From assembly GCA_900317305.1 (NCBI GenBank), contig ONGG01000018.1, forward strand, positions 1 through 51,695: DNA of 51,695 bases, in the 5' to 3' direction. The stretch comes from an uncultured Prevotellaceae bacterium. GTDB lineage: Bacteria; Bacteroidota; Bacteroidia; Bacteroidales; Bacteroidaceae. Positions 4,525-51,695 of the stretch are shown piece by piece (position 1 is the stretch's first letter; each line of letters opens with the position of its first letter). Both the position numbers and the translations under genes were made by a program. The notes beneath the pieces were generated by a model that was given only the letters and a program-made list of their open reading frames with translations, searched no databases and was not told the DNA's origin.

Positions 4525-6039
4525 ATGAAACTCAAATATTTCTTTCCGTTCTTCGTAGCAGTGATTGCTGCTATGTTTACAAGTTGCTCTGACGACAATG
4601 ACCCAACTTACTTCGACGAGATACGCGTGTCGCAATCGTATGTGAGCCTGAGCACCAGCGGTGGCTCCACATCCATCGACATCAAGGCCAACGGCGAATG
4701 GACGGTCTCGGAGATTCCCGAATGGCTTACCGTAACGCCCGCCTCTGGTTCGGGCAACGGAACCATTACCTTCTCGGCCGATGCCGGTGAGGGCCGCACT
4801 GCTGAGGTGCTGATCACATGCGCAGGCAAGACCCAGCACATCAATATCATCCAGGGCATTGCCACCGTCTCGAACGCCACCTGCGCTGAGGTGCTGGCTG
4901 GTCCCGACTCAAAGACCTACCGCGTGACCGGTACGGTGACCAAGATCGTGAACACCACCTATGGCAACTGGTACATGGACGATGGCACCGGCGTGTTGTA
5001 TATCTATGGCACGCTCGACGCCAAGGGTGGCACCAAGAACTTCCTCAGCTGGGGCCTCGAGGTAGGTGACCAGATTACTGTGGAGGGTCCGAAGACCACT
5101 TACAACGGCACCGTGGAACTTGTAGACGTGACCGTTGTGAAGATTGAGAAGTCGCTGATCAAGTGCGACTCCCTCACCGTGGCCGGCGTCAAGACCGACG
5201 AGCTGCCTCTTGAAGGTGGCGAGATTGTTGCCCACCTCACCTGCAAGGGTTCAGGCGTGGCCGTTGACATCCCCGCCGAGGCCCAGAGCTGGCTTGGCGT
5301 TGTCGCTTCCACAGTAGGCAATACACCCACCGTCACCTTCCGTGCCCTGCCCAATGCTGGCGGCGACCGCAGTGCCACCGTGCACTTCAACACCACCGAC
5401 GGCAAGAAGAACTACTCTGCCGAGGCCACCATCACCCAGAAGGGTGCTATCGTTGAGGTGACTGTAGAGGAATTCCTCGACGCTGAGAAAAGCACCAGCC
5501 AATACCGCATCACCGGTGTCATCACCGAGCTCTATACCAGCGACAAGCAGGGCAAGAGCTTCTACGTGCAGGACTACACGGGCAAAGTGCTCGTCTACCG
5601 TGCAGAAGGTTTCATTGAGGCTGGCGCCAAAGTGGGCGACATCGTGACCGTCGTAGGTCAGCGTGGAGCCTATAAAGACACGCCCCAGATGGTATCAGGA
5701 ACGTTTGAGAACCTGAAGTATGCCGTGACCGAGGTGAGCATCGCCGAGTTCCTGGCCAAGCCCGACTCGAAGGAAACCTACTACATGGTGACCGGTACCA
5801 TCGACGAAATCGCCAACACCACCTATGGCAACCTCTACATCACCGACGGCTCCAACCGCCTGTATGTATACGGCTGCTATCCCGGCTATGGCGCAACGGG
5901 TGACTTCCGCAAGGACTTCCTCTCCGCCGCTGGCATCGAGGTGGGCGACAAGCTGACGATGATTGGCTACAAAGACACCTACAAAGAGGTCATCGAACTC
6001 TGTGGAGGTATCTACTTCTCGCACGAGAAAGCCCAGTAA
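4525..6039 (+). CDS. Surface-type lipoprotein with BACON and repeated OB-fold-like domains
   Basis: 504 residues. The start MKLKYFFPFFVAVIAAMFTSC gives a lipobox with the lipidated Cys at about residue 21, followed by SDDND, a negatively charged run like the lipoprotein export signals of Bacteroidetes surface proteins. Residues ~36-112 form a BACON domain (VSLSTSGGSTSIDIKANGEWTV, PEWLTVTPASG). Three similar OB-fold-like units follow at about 117-208, 312-398 and 408-500; units 1 and 3 share YxVTGT...NTTYGN(W/L)Y and a GxEVGD..T..G.K.TY pattern. A second BACON-like domain lies near 215-308. The gene starts 27 bases after the TonB receptor and ends at a strong terminator, so the two likely form an operon and the lipoprotein may help bind the receptor's ligand. 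No catalytic motif is visible. Confidence 0.85.
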   Translation: MKLKYFFPFFVAVIAAMFTSCSDDNDPTYFDEIRVSQSYVSLSTSGGSTSIDIKANGEWTVSEIPEWLTVTPASGSGNGTITFSADAGEGRTAEVLITCAGKTQHINIIQGIATVSNATCAEVLAGPDSKTYRVTGTVTKIVNTTYGNWYMDDGTGVLYIYGTLDAKGGTKNFLSWGLEVGDQITVEGPKTTYNGTVELVDVTVVKIEKSLIKCDSLTVAGVKTDELPLEGGEIVAHLTCKGSGVAVDIPAEAQSWLGVVASTVGNTPTVTFRALPNAGGDRSATVHFNTTDGKKNYSAEATITQKGAIVEVTVEEFLDAEKSTSQYRITGVITELYTSDKQGKSFYVQDYTGKVLVYRAEGFIEAGAKVGDIVTVVGQRGAYKDTPQMVSGTFENLKYAVTEVSIAEFLAKPDSKETYYMVTGTIDEIANTTYGNLYITDGSNRLYVYGCYPGYGATGDFRKDFLSAAGIEVGDKLTMIGYKDTYKEVIELCGGIYFSHEKAQ

Positions 6040-47177: not shown

Positions 47178-47209
47178 ATAAAAAATCTGACAACTAATGT
47201 ATTAGAGAG

Positions 47210-47340
47210 GAGAATGTTACGTCCAAGGTGGAGAATGTTACGTCCAAGGTGGAGAATGTTACGTCCAAGGTGGTGAATGTTACGCCCATTCGAGGAGAAT
47301 GTTACGCCCTTTCGAGAAGAATGTTACGCTTGCCTTTGAA
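47210..47340. repeat. Tandem repeat of 21-22 bases with core GAATGTTACG, six copies
   Basis: Copies begin near 47210, 47231, 47252, 47273, 47295 and 47317. Copies 1-3 are identical; copies 4-6 have drifted outside the core. Read on the plus strand, the core encodes ENVT in each copy, but the frame moves by one base at copy 5 and again at copy 6. No spacers lie between units, so this is not a CRISPR array. The repeat marks the left edge of the lower-GC region. Confidence 0.9.
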
Positions 47341-47550
47341 GAGGAGCGTGTCATGGAGGGCATTCCCGTAGGGAACAAGAGGCACGACGATGCCGCCAAT
47401 ATAGGAAACAGCTGCTTTGGGGCCGCGATTGCCGCCACAGAAAGACCTAAAAAGAAAAACAAAAAAGAAAAGGCCCCTTTAACCCCAAAAGAAAAAAATA
47501 AAATAAAAACTCCCCTACTACGTACGCGCGCGAAAGTAAACACGGCCTGA
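47299..47550 (+). pseudogene. Possible remnant of a small charged protein gene
   Basis: An 83-codon open frame begins inside the tandem repeat (MLRPFEKNVTLAFEEE), continues through MEGIPVGNKRHDDAANIG and ends in a Lys-rich stretch (RPKKKNKKEKAPLTPKEK). Repeated NVT-containing peptides followed by Lys-rich tails occur in C-terminal parts of some Bacteroidetes accessory-region proteins, as I recall, so this may be the tail of a decayed gene. There is no clear ribosome-binding site. The reading as a remnant is inference. Confidence 0.3.
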
Positions 47551-47596
47551 GATCACGTCCATACGAAAATGACACACCAATGGCAGCAAAATGCAT

Positions 47597-47604
47597 TATC
47601 TTTG
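47597..47604 (+). promoter_or_regulatory. Putative -7 promoter element upstream of the recombinase
   Basis: TATCTTTG on the plus strand matches TAnnTTTG. It lies 222 bases before the recombinase ATG, implying a long leader that contains a G9 tract (47625-47633) and a 38-codon open frame beginning at 47618. Confidence 0.45.
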
Positions 47605-47624
47605 CAACAACAAAAGGATGGTTC

Positions 47625-47633
47625 GGGGGGGGG
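47625..47633 (+). other. Nine-G homopolymer in the recombinase leader
   Basis: Nine consecutive G residues inside a short open frame (ATG at 47618, preceded by AAAAGG). Such tracts can slip during replication; here slippage would change the frame of the leader peptide. Function unproven. Confidence 0.6.
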
Positions 47634-47826
47634 TAATGCTGTGCATCAATAGTTGCCGTTGCCAAATACGGCAAAGATTGTGGGATTCGGAAAAACATCT
47701 TTGGAATACCTGCGAGATAAAAACGGCTTTGTGACAACCAACAAGAAGGCTGCACCAATAAAACTTCATTTTCATTTCGCAATGAGATTGAAAAATATTA
47801 ACTATTGCACAACACAATAGGATAAT

Positions 47827-49146
47827 ATGAATAAAAAACAAAATACCGACTCGACAGAACAACCGCGCATGGTGAAGTCTCATGACATTCATATCGATGC
47901 GGAATATGCAGAATGGATAGCCGAACTGAAGCACCGCTATCGCTCTGCCCAGGTGAAAGCAGCCGTCAAAATGAATGCCGAGAAGTTGTTGTTCAACCTC
48001 GTGGAAGCAGGAAATCCGCGATTATTGAAGAAATTAGTGAAGAATGACACCGAATATAGCCTATATTTGGAGTATCAGATGGGTTATAATCGTGACAATG
48101 GCACATCCATTCGTAAGAAGGAAAGTCTGTCACTGTATCTTTTGGCATCACCTCGTACACCCATCCAGAGACAGCAAAACAAAGAGACGCTGGAATTGGC
48201 CAAGAAGATTCGTTTCGAGCGTGAGCAGGAGTTCCTGGACAACCGCGAGGGGTATCGGCTGAAGAAAGAGAAAGGCATCAACTTCCTCGACTATTACCAG
48301 TCGTACATCAGCAGTTATACCAAGAAGGACATCCGCATGATTCAGATTGCCCTCAATTGTTTCCAGGACTTCCTTGCGGAGTATCATCCGCTGTTGAAAG
48401 ACTTCATCCGGCCCAATGCCATTACTCATGAAATGATGGTGAAGTTTGCCGAATATCTCCAGACTCGTAGTGTGGGTGAAGGGGCAAAAAGCATCTTGCA
48501 GCGATTCAAGAAGGTGGTGCGTTCTGCCGTTGACCAAGGCATCATGGCGAAAGATCCATGCAGGGGAGTAGTCTGTGTTGTTGATGACCAGGTGCTGAAG
48601 AAAGATGTGCTCTCACAAGAAGAGATCGTTAAACTTATCAACACCCACTATCAGTTTGAGAAAGAGAACGTGCGCAATGCCTTCATCTTCTGTCTCTATA
48701 CAGGCATGCGTTTCTGCGATGTCAAAGATTTGCGCTACTCGAATATTGACTACGCCAACAAACTCCTGCGCTTTGAACAGGACAAGACTAAAGGACACTC
48801 TGCCCGTAGTTGGGTCACCATTCCCCTCAATGACGGACTCATCCATCTGGTTGGCAGGTCAAAGGAAGGCGAGACAAAGGATTCGCTTGTTTTCAACCTT
48901 CCATCATACGAAAGCTGCTGTAAGTCCGTCAAGCGATGGGTGAAACGTGCCGGCATCGACAAGCACATTAGCTGGCATTGCGCTCGCCACTCCTTCGCCG
49001 TGAACATTCTCAACAACGGTGCCAACATAAAAACCGTTGCCAGCCTCCTTGGTCATAGCGGTTTGAAGCACACCGAGAAATACACCCGTGCCGTTGACAA
49101 GTTGAAAGAGGATGCCATCAATAGCCTGCCAGCACTCAACCTATAA
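47827..49146 (+). CDS. Tyrosine recombinase with an N-terminal DUF1016/YhcG-like segment
   Basis: 439 residues. The catalytic set is complete: Arg295 (YTGMRFCDVKDL), Lys322 (DKTKGHSAR), His384 and Arg387 (HISWHCARHSF), His410 (LLGHSG) and the nucleophile Tyr419 (HTEKYTR). A SAM-like core-binding domain lies at ~150-245. Residues ~22-57 (IDAEYAEWIAELKHRYRSAQ, then VKAAVKMNAEKLLFN) match the opening helices of DUF1016/YhcG nuclease proteins rather than a recombinase arm; family similarity is lost after LLFN, where recombinase arm sequence (DTEYSLYLEYQMGY, KKESLSLYLL) begins. The gene looks like a fusion by recombination. It sits 272 bases before hsdR, as invertases of type I specificity genes often do in Bacteroidetes. 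GC is lower than the core genes. Confidence 0.9.
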   Translation: MNKKQNTDSTEQPRMVKSHDIHIDAEYAEWIAELKHRYRSAQVKAAVKMNAEKLLFNLVEAGNPRLLKKLVKNDTEYSLYLEYQMGYNRDNGTSIRKKESLSLYLLASPRTPIQRQQNKETLELAKKIRFEREQEFLDNREGYRLKKEKGINFLDYYQSYISSYTKKDIRMIQIALNCFQDFLAEYHPLLKDFIRPNAITHEMMVKFAEYLQTRSVGEGAKSILQRFKKVVRSAVDQGIMAKDPCRGVVCVVDDQVLKKDVLSQEEIVKLINTHYQFEKENVRNAFIFCLYTGMRFCDVKDLRYSNIDYANKLLRFEQDKTKGHSARSWVTIPLNDGLIHLVGRSKEGETKDSLVFNLPSYESCCKSVKRWVKRAGIDKHISWHCARHSFAVNILNNGANIKTVASLLGHSGLKHTEKYTRAVDKLKEDAINSLPALNL

Positions 49147-49160
49147 CATTGATTTATTTA

Positions 49161-49218
49161 CTGGCGAAAAGAGAAGATATTTTTCCTTTCGCCAGCAAAC
49201 ATCATTGTTCTGGCGAAA
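49161..49218. repeat. Three CTGGCGAAA motifs (two direct, one inverted) between recombinase and hsdR
   Basis: CTGGCGAAA at 49161-49169, its reverse complement at 49187-49195, and a direct copy at 49210-49218. The first two form a 9-bp stem with a 17-base loop, just 15 bases after the recombinase stop. They may be a terminator or recombinase-binding sites. Confidence 0.6.
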
Positions 49219-49344
49219 GAAGAATAAGTTTAGTCCACATTGCGCATATATAGCAAGGTGGCAAACCAATCCTGATTTTATATATAATAATGTGAATAAT
49301 GCTTGTTTTTAGACCGTTAATGCAATTTTTCGACTAAAAATGAG

Positions 49345-49418: not shown

Positions 49419-51695
49419 ATGACGCAGAGCGAAGAGATACTGGAGCAAGGACTGATAAAGACCCTGACGGAAATGAGCTACGAGTACGTTTCCATCAAGG
49501 AGGAAGAGAACTTGCTTGCTAATTTCAAGGTGCAGTTGGAGAAGCACAACCATAAGGAGCTGGCTGCGCATGGTCGTGAACACTTTACCGATAAGGAGTT
49601 CGACAAGATACTGCTCTACTTGGAGGGTGGTACCCGCTTTGAGAAGGCAAAGAAGCTCCGTGACTTGAAGAACTTCCAGTTAGAGAACGGTGAACGTGTG
49701 TGGATTGAGTTCATCAACAAGCAGCACTGGTGCCAAAACGAGTTTCAGGTCAGCAATCAGATAACCGTTGAGGGACGAAAGAAGTGCCGTTATGACGTTA
49801 CCATCCTCATCAACGGTTTGCCACTGGTACAGATAGAGTTGAAGAAGCGTGGTGTGGAGTTAAAACAGGCATACAACCAGATTCAACGATACCACAAGAC
49901 TTCGTTTCACGGGCTTTTTGATTACATCCAACTCTTCGTTATCAGCAACGGTGTAAATACCCGTTACTTTGCAAACAACCCTAATAGCGGCTATAAGTTC
50001 ACGTTCAACTGGACGGATGCAGAAAACGTACCTTTCAACGACCTGAGTAAGTTTGCCTACTTCTTTTTTGACAAGTGCAATCTTGGCAAGATGATAAGCA
50101 AGTATATAGTACTGCATGAGGGCGATAAGTGCCTAATGGTGCTTCGCCCCTATCAGTTCTATGCTGTGGAGCAGATACTCGACCGAGTGCAGAATTCTAA
50201 TAAGAACGGCTACATCTGGCACACTACAGGAGCAGGTAAGACCTTGACATCGTTCAAGGCGGCTCAGTTAGTGAGTGAGATTGATGGTATTGACAAGGTG
50301 ATGTTTGTCGTTGACCGCCACGACCTCGATACCCAGACACAATCGGAGTATGAAGCGTTTGAGCCGGGTGCCGTTGACAACACGGACAACACTAAGGAAC
50401 TTATCAAGCGATTGCGTAGTGACAGCAAGATTATCATTACAACAATTCAGAAGCTGAATGTGGCCGTTACCCGTGAGTATTACAACAAACGGTTGCAGGG
50501 AGTGCGTGATCAGAAAGTGGTGATGATTTTTGACGAGTGCCATCGCAGTCACTTCGGCGAATGTCATAAAAACATCGTGAAGTTCTTCAATAACCTACAG
50601 ATATTCGGTTTTACAGGAACGCCCATTTTTGCAGAGAATGCCAAACAGGAGCATACGACGGCAGAAGTATTTGGCGACTGTCTGCACAAATATCTCATCA
50701 AGGATGCCATTGCGGACGAGAATGTGCTTGGTTTCTTGGTAGAATACTATAAGGGGCAGCAGAATATAGACCTGTTCAGTGAAAAGCGCATGACGGAGAT
50801 AGCACAGTTCATCCTCAACAACTTCAACAAGTCAACATTTGACGGGGAGTTTAATGCTCTATTTGCCATCCAGTCCGTTTCCGTTCCCATGCTCTTGAAA
50901 TACTACAAGATATTCAAATCATTGAATCCGAAAATCAAGATTGGAGCCGTATTCACTTACGCTGCCAACGAGAGTCAGGACGATGCACAGACAGGCATGA
51001 ACCAAGGCTTTGCAGATGACAAGGTGACCTCTGACGAGTTGCAAGCCATCATGGACGACTATAATGAGATGTTCAATACGGCATTCACGACGGAGAACTT
51101 CAGCGCATATTACGATGACATCAACTTGCGTATGAAGAAGAAAAAGCCGGATATGGAACCTCTTGACCTACTGACTGCTGCAGGCATTCAGTCGTACCAA
51201 CCGTGTGCTGAACGAGAAGAAACGCTTTGGCAAGGTGGTATGTTTCCGTGACTTGAAGGATAACGTGGATGCTGCTATCAAGTTGTTCAGCAACAACCAG
51301 CCGAATGAATTTATCATCCGTGAGCCATTTGAAGAAGTGAAAAAGGAACTGAACAATCTCACTATTGAGTTCCTAAAGAAATACCCCAAGCCACAGTATA
51401 TCGACACACTGCAAAGCGAACTGGATAAGCGTGACTTCGTACTGGCATTCCGTGAAATCATCAAAAAGCAGGCTGAGATACAGATATACGAGGACTACAA
51501 TACCAATGATCCAGACCTCTACATGACCGAACAGGAGTTTGCCGATTTCAAGAGCAAATACCTGGACATCACTGTCGGCGTTATCAATCCTCCTGTCGAT
51601 GCTACGACTATGGCTGCAGAGGGAGAAATTCCCTATAATGACGAAAGTGGTTTGGAGGATATAGACTTCTGTCTGGAACTGCTTCATAGTGACGT
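49419..51695 (+). pseudogene. hsdR: Type I restriction enzyme R subunit, disrupted by internal deletion and frameshift; runs off the window
   Basis: The first frame codes 610 residues and stops at 51249-51251. It holds the nuclease domain (RYDVTILINGLPLVQIELKK: Asp126, Glu140, Lys142), Walker A TTGAGKT (Lys274), DECH box (372-375) and FTGTP. At about 51170-51176 the frame should continue into motif V (of the LVVNMFLTGFDA type), but the sequence jumps from EPLDLL straight to motif VI in another frame: LLQAFSRTNRVLNEKK from 51175. That second frame stays open to the window end (VCFRDLKDNVDAAIKLFSNN...). Roughly 30 codons are missing by comparison with the family. The protein cannot translocate DNA as written. 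hsdM and hsdS are not in the window. Confidence 0.88.

Follow-up and report, generated by a model that had tools for sequence, protein, structure and literature searches.

A tyrosine recombinase that begins with the start of a DUF1016/YhcG nuclease, probably a chance chimera

In the window, the whole stretch of 51,695 nucleotides analysed here, the open reading frame at 47827-49146 (+) encodes a protein of 439 amino acids, a tyrosine recombinase that has the start of a DUF1016/YhcG nuclease as its residues 1-57. We confirm that the switch from DUF1016 to integrase is abrupt, that it exists in the assembled sequence, and that it stands far above chance. In our judgement, the protein is quite probably a chance chimera, in which the integrase of a decaying island acquired a new start through a single illegitimate join. 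As no second example was seen in the genomes searched, the fusion seems to be accidental and not to represent a novel type of enzyme. It may be regarded as a curiosity, a clear case of a mobile-element integrase that gained a new start by illegitimate joining, and that was probably then locked in place. The integrase-DUF1016 gene pair, which is widespread in tRNA-Leu(CAA) islands, may be more useful than the fusion itself.

The recombinase body and its relatives

The body of the protein, residues 58-439 (47998-49146, +), is defined by Pfam matches and by catalytic-type residues. Pfam detects a SAM-like domain at residues 152-245 and the phage-integrase catalytic domain at residues 261-422 (PF00589, 84.3 bits against a cut-off of 27.1). 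The residues expected to be catalytic in the recombinase, R295, K320/K322, H384, R387, H410 and Y419, are all present. The catalytic domain matches both XerC/XerD-type profiles (TIGR02224 and TIGR02225), but with scores of 75 and 85 bits, far under the NCBIfam cut-offs of about 330 bits. By this score test, the protein is predicted not to be a Xer housekeeping enzyme.

The best 80 of 82 matching stretches correspond to 77 distinct related loci. Matches to most of the nearest loci begin at residue 57, the exceptions being L010 (residue 50), L011 and L012 (residue 65), and fragments. The nearest recombinases begin MAESRGKNK/NLVEAGN, a nine-residue native start (before the slash) followed by the body, and the start of the nearest intact relatives reads MAESRGKNK/NLVEAGNPRLLKK with small variants. 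A second integrase of the same kind, with a native-type start, is encoded on contig C40 of the source genome (G000, a Prevotella genome), and is 86% identical to the window protein from residue 56.

The tRNA-Leu(CAA)-island integrases L007-L010, L013 and L066 have 94-95% protein identity to the window protein in the alignment, and the same arm, SAM-like and catalytic domains. They also have the downstream hairpin region in common with it, and L007 and L008 the same hsdR gene as well. In contrast to these integrases, the window gene lacks the native nine-residue start, the promoter and the attachment site, and has 57 foreign residues instead. In the L013 integrase, His replaces Y419 (window numbering), the expected nucleophile, and this copy is probably inactive.

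The recombinase body has been under constraint. At otherwise invariant codons, it has 9 synonymous and 3 non-synonymous private changes, compared to 44 synonymous and 8 non-synonymous ones summed over six Prevotella relatives (L007, L008, L009, L013, L066 and L010). Pairwise comparison of the window body with the same six relatives yields dN of 0.012-0.018 and dS of 0.33-0.50. The truncated copies L011 and L012 have 5 synonymous changes and 1 non-synonymous change each. Since these truncated copies show the same pattern of changes, the fusion event may be young.

The DUF1016 head

The head, residues 1-57 (47827-47997, +), includes a donor-type start codon, and is delimited by an amino acid match to a DUF1016 protein of genome G453 and by a DNA boundary at 47996/7. 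In a four-protein comparison, it is 91% identical to residues 1-57 of the G453 protein, including the same Met (E 4e-35), and this match was also found in an 85-amino-acid junction search of 398 genomes (E 8e-24). Identity to the DUF1016 protein of genome G406 is 86%. The recombinase with a DUF1016/YhcG front end, which the original prediction had proposed from the letters alone, is thus borne out. The abrupt switch that it had placed near residue 57 is also real, but the DUF1016-like part does not begin at about residue 22, as had been thought; it begins at the Met, residue 1.

The G453 (contig C5) and G406 (contig C20) proteins are complete Prevotella DUF1016/YhcG nucleases with DUF1016_N and YhcG_C domains (PF17761 and PF06250 in Pfam). 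The start codon and the first 57 residues are common to them and the window protein, and in the case of G406 also the leader DNA. In contrast, the window protein lacks about 350 further residues of these nucleases, among them the remainder of DUF1016_N and the entire YhcG_C nuclease domain. The absence of the YhcG_C PD-(D/E)XK nuclease domain is also seen in the Pfam matches of the full 439-amino-acid protein. At the DNA level, 47817-47997 is 86.7% identical to the G453 gene, and 47754-47996 is 85.6% identical to the G406 gene. Part of the latter match, 47754-47826 (+), is the leader of the captured DUF1016 gene; it has no match in G453, for which similarity begins at 47817.

An earlier suggestion, that a one-off recombination captured a promoter and a start, gains support from the capture of the DUF1016 start codon together with about 73 bp of leader (by comparison with G406), and from a join unseen elsewhere. 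In the alignment of the leaders, a -7-like box reads TTAACTTTG in G406 and TTAACTATTG in the window. The box was recognized on the basis of TAnnTTTG, which we take to be the Bacteroidales promoter consensus. If this consensus applies, the change from TTAACTTTG to TTAACTATTG would weaken the promoter.

The head has no significant score in the profile search that had been proposed as a check of its origin, an outcome that had been named beforehand as counting against that origin. Pfam DUF1016_N (PF17761) did not match residues 1-70 (to E 1), nor residues 1-57 or 13-70 (to E 10). This is explained by the extent of the head, which holds only about the first 25 of the 137 DUF1016_N model positions; in full-length DUF1016 proteins, the Pfam match starts at residue 33. 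The origin of the head is still certain from the full-length homologues. With so small a coverage of the model and no Pfam match, the head is not a domain.

Integrase arm regions vary, and the head is located where the arm domain starts, so that it could in principle be a divergent native arm region and not foreign at all. We attach next to no probability to this reading. When the 77 related loci (L001-L083) were searched by tblastn with the head as query, the search retrieved only the window's own copies and otherwise chance matches (E of 1.2 or worse), which is not expected if the N-terminal 57 residues were an ordinary recombinase arm. Moreover, the native arm domain is still present: Arm-DNA-bind_5 is found at residues 67-134, in a Pfam match that appears only when residues 1-57 are removed. 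Finally, DNA identity of 86-87% to DUF1016 genes extends up to the join, and this match, together with the one to full-length DUF1016 proteins, refutes a native arm.

The junction

The junction codon AAC (N57, 47995-47997, +) could come from either parent, being AAC in G453, AAT in G406 and AAC in native integrases. Integrase similarity at the DNA level begins at 47995, and from there on, blastn identity to the integrases L007-L010, L013, L016 and L066 is 89-93%. DUF1016 similarity ends at 47996/7. At the join (indicated by a slash), G453 reads TTTAAC/TGG, G406 TTCAAT/TGG, the native integrases AAGAAC/CTC, and the window TTCAAC/CTC. The parents have at most three bases (AAC) in common at this point, and ordinary homologous recombination is therefore an unlikely cause.

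In the chimera that we favour, a tRNA-Leu(CAA)-island integrase would have been deprived of its first nine codons with the start codon, of its promoter and of its attachment site. Integrase codon 10 (N57) would have been fused in frame to DUF1016 codon 57 by a deletion or rearrangement that needed next to no homology, so that the integrase would now carry the leader and start codon of a Prevotella DUF1016 (YhcG-type) nuclease gene. The protein, if made, would be an ordinary and possibly active tyrosine recombinase, whose arm-binding domain is preceded by a foreign N-terminal tail. The deletion route is an inference, and it counts against this reading that the source genome (92.9% complete) yielded no remainder of the donor gene and has no DUF1016_N (PF17761) match. 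The sole YhcG_C match in this genome, a fragment at G000:C20:53775-54068, was considered as a reciprocal product and rejected, since it is only 29% identical to the donor type. The DUF1016 gene that is the operon partner of the integrase in islands was rejected as the donor as well: it belongs to another subfamily, with the L062 and L023 proteins 26-28% identical to those of G453 and G406 in long alignments.

Loss of integrase 5' ends is common. At a DNA identity of 84% or more to the L008 native gene, there are 17 loci (L008 included), of which nine have the native 5' end and eight begin at inner points. With such losses in 8 of 17 loci, one in-frame join to a passing gene is unsurprising. 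Even among the nine loci with the native 5' end, there is one (L010) in which a one-base insertion shifts the native ATG out of frame, and another (L013) is the copy with His in place of Y419. L011 (near 6001) and L012 (near 5999) belong to different genomes, but their 5' ends are missing up to almost the same base (CGATTATTG, window 48017-48019), and the DNA that precedes the breaks differs between the two. These breaks prompted the idea that the recombinase might drive a switch at its own 5' end. The idea gained no support: the head was not found in those loci, and the blastn comparison of the window with L011 and L012 gave no reverse-strand match.

The junction could also be an assembly or library artefact that is absent from the organism. 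The locus often coincides with contig ends, which hint at shared sequence that can mislead an assembler: the window stops inside hsdR, and the contigs of L007, L008, L009, L011, L012 and L046 terminate within the locus or close to it. The DUF1016 genes of G453 and G406 are likewise near contig ends. However, the three or fewer bases common to the parents are too short for an assembler overlap, there is no ambiguous base N around the junction, and the join is in frame. A chimera of this origin thus appears rather improbable.

Island type and attachment site

Some 220-260 bp upstream of the gene, intact relatives have a stem-loop and then either GTACCCAGAGCCGG or GTACCCAGACCCGG. In L007-L009, L013 and L066, GTACCCAGAGCCGG is located about 220 bp 5' of the start. 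The matching core at the other island end is the 3' end of tRNA-Leu(CAA). ARAGORN identified tRNA-Leu(CAA) in 10 of the 12 loci scanned, ten of which had been picked for a tRNA-type core already seen there. Both island ends are present in L053, L054, L062 and L069, 4.6 to 7.1 kb apart. In the genome of a close relative (G667, L010/L150), the tRNA core is found at C6:277571, and a distance of about 19 kb separates it from the site on the integrase side of that contig. The window recombinase thus belongs to the integrase lineage whose islands sit where tRNA-Leu(CAA) ends (3' end).

The window gene itself has no attachment core. There is no match to GTACCCAGAGCCGG near it with up to 3 mismatches, and the four 3-mismatch matches in the window are elsewhere. 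The search for the tRNA-side core in seven assemblies did not identify it in G000, G765 and G406. Because the adjacent attachment site is gone, the island is probably immobile, and probably locked in place.

The cargo of the islands varies. It comprises hsdR in the window, L007, L008 and L046, DNA methylase and helicase-type genes in L150, and replication-type proteins in L053 and L069; in the Pfam scan of the cargo, 4 of 10 proteins had no match.

The integrase-DUF1016 gene pair

In 34 of the 77 relatives (from the best 80 of 82 stretches), a DUF1016 match is found on the same strand, 29-42 bp past the end of the integrase match. These loci are L017-L029, L031-L042, L047-L049, L060, L062, L068, L072, L077 and L083. 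The DUF1016 gene is confirmed by Pfam in L062, and was identified by tblastn in the other 33. Viewed from the DUF1016 side, L089 and L107 have a distant integrase (23-28% identity) just 5' of the DUF1016 gene. These are 2 of 65 DUF1016-type loci tested, out of 67 given (L118 and L120 were left out as integrase loci), most of them with only about 1.5 kb of flanking DNA.

In tRNA-Leu(CAA)-type islands of Bacteroidales, integrase and nuclease genes thus appear to form a conserved pair. DUF1016 is listed as a PD-(D/E)XK family in PMC1913061, and PMC10782964 counts it (as COG4804) among the frequently shared transferred genes of gut bacteria. In view of the pair, a role of DUF1016 nucleases, which have been little studied, in moving or defending tRNA-Leu(CAA) islands may be suggested. 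It is conceivable, albeit quite doubtful, that integrase and DUF1016 form a two-gene module, and that the fused DUF1016 segment helps to find the partner or alters site choice. If this were true, nature would have performed an experiment in the window protein, by tethering an N-terminal segment of DUF1016 to an integrase.

Search for further fusions

A second fusion was not seen in four overlapping searches, of 399, 398, 393 and 395 genomes. The query was residues 1-70 for the 399 genomes of the family, with 57 places listed, and residues 14-98 for 398 genomes of the genus, 393 of the order and 395 of the phylum, in samples that overlap and include the source genome. From the family search, 26 of the 56 places outside the window were translated and contained no fusion; L091 and L099 among them had no usable frame, and L096, L098 and L105 had short frames only. 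The genus search yielded 116 places. Translation of 29 loci (L117-L145) and two more identified them as ordinary DUF1016 proteins or ordinary integrases. As judged by the match range, none of the remaining places and of the order places, other than the window, aligned end-to-end with the query. The two further ones translated are the wide matches G542:C149 and G569:C99, considered as fusions and rejected, as the translations are those of an ordinary integrase and an ordinary DUF1016 protein. Phage, plasmid and viral-contig collections contained no fusion. A published description of a DUF1016-recombinase fusion was not found in the literature covered, which excludes most papers in subscription journals. 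An occurrence in several genomes, which would have made the fusion a novel architecture, was not encountered in those searched.

In view of the in-frame join with a donor start codon and the constrained body, it may be asked whether the fusion is functional, with a DUF1016 head that has been retained for its use in regulating the recombinase or in recruiting it to a partner bound by DUF1016. The body is about as conserved as that of intact relatives, and the reading frame is preserved; both points speak against a chance chimera and are what a functional fusion would predict. The gene pair, too, is in line with a function, since it shows that both families co-occur in the same elements. However, truncated L011 and L012 show similar private changes, and constraint is thus no proof of use. 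The head comprises a small part of DUF1016_N, its DUF1016 subfamily is not that of the island partner, and recurrence was not seen in the four genome searches. A functional fusion is thus unlikely, in our view strongly so. The related idea of a domesticated targeting module is left unsupported by a head that is a partial domain and was not seen again, and by a source genome in which no DUF1016_N gene was found.

Flanking DNA

Downstream of the recombinase gene, a conserved hairpin region (CTGGCGAAAAG..CTTTCGCCAG, 49147-49257, +), defined by an alignment of 15 sequences from 14 loci, closes the integrase module. Similarity to L010, L011, L013, L075 and L076 ends at 49256-49261. The region may be a terminator or an integrase-binding region. 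It reads CTGGCGAAAAG..CTTTTCGCCAG, then TAAGTTTAGTYC, and follows either the integrase or the integrase-DUF1016 pair. Equivalents are present in L007, L008, L010, L011, L013, L035, L036, L046, L048, L049, L070, L075 and L076.

The cargo gene hsdR, for a type I restriction subunit, follows at 49419-51251 (+), with Pfam matches to HSDR_N, SWI2_SNF2 and T1R_D3-like. Its frame breaks near 51172 (51172-51251), at a point where about 83 nt are missing relative to L008, the sole locus compared. Past the break, the frame continues in another phase to the contig end at 51695. In L007 and L008, integrase and hsdR stand in the same order but there is no DUF1016 head, so that hsdR arrived with the integrase and not with the head.

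Upstream of the fusion gene lies a repeat-rich remnant (47208-47625, +), related to the upstream DNA of L011 (G757) and to parts of G000:C36. In the blastn comparison with L011, 47448-47625 is 88% identical to 5660-5838, and 47208-47329 is 78% identical to 5528-5650. The remnant also matches three pieces of G000:C36:1410-2231. It has ATGTTACGCC-type units, and is apparently a shortened relic of a gene like the open reading frame at G000:C36:1024-2163. In G757, the repeat-rich DNA (L011 5528-5838) sits just 5' of the integrase. The upstream PAP2-type gene has relatives in 37 of 60 genomes.
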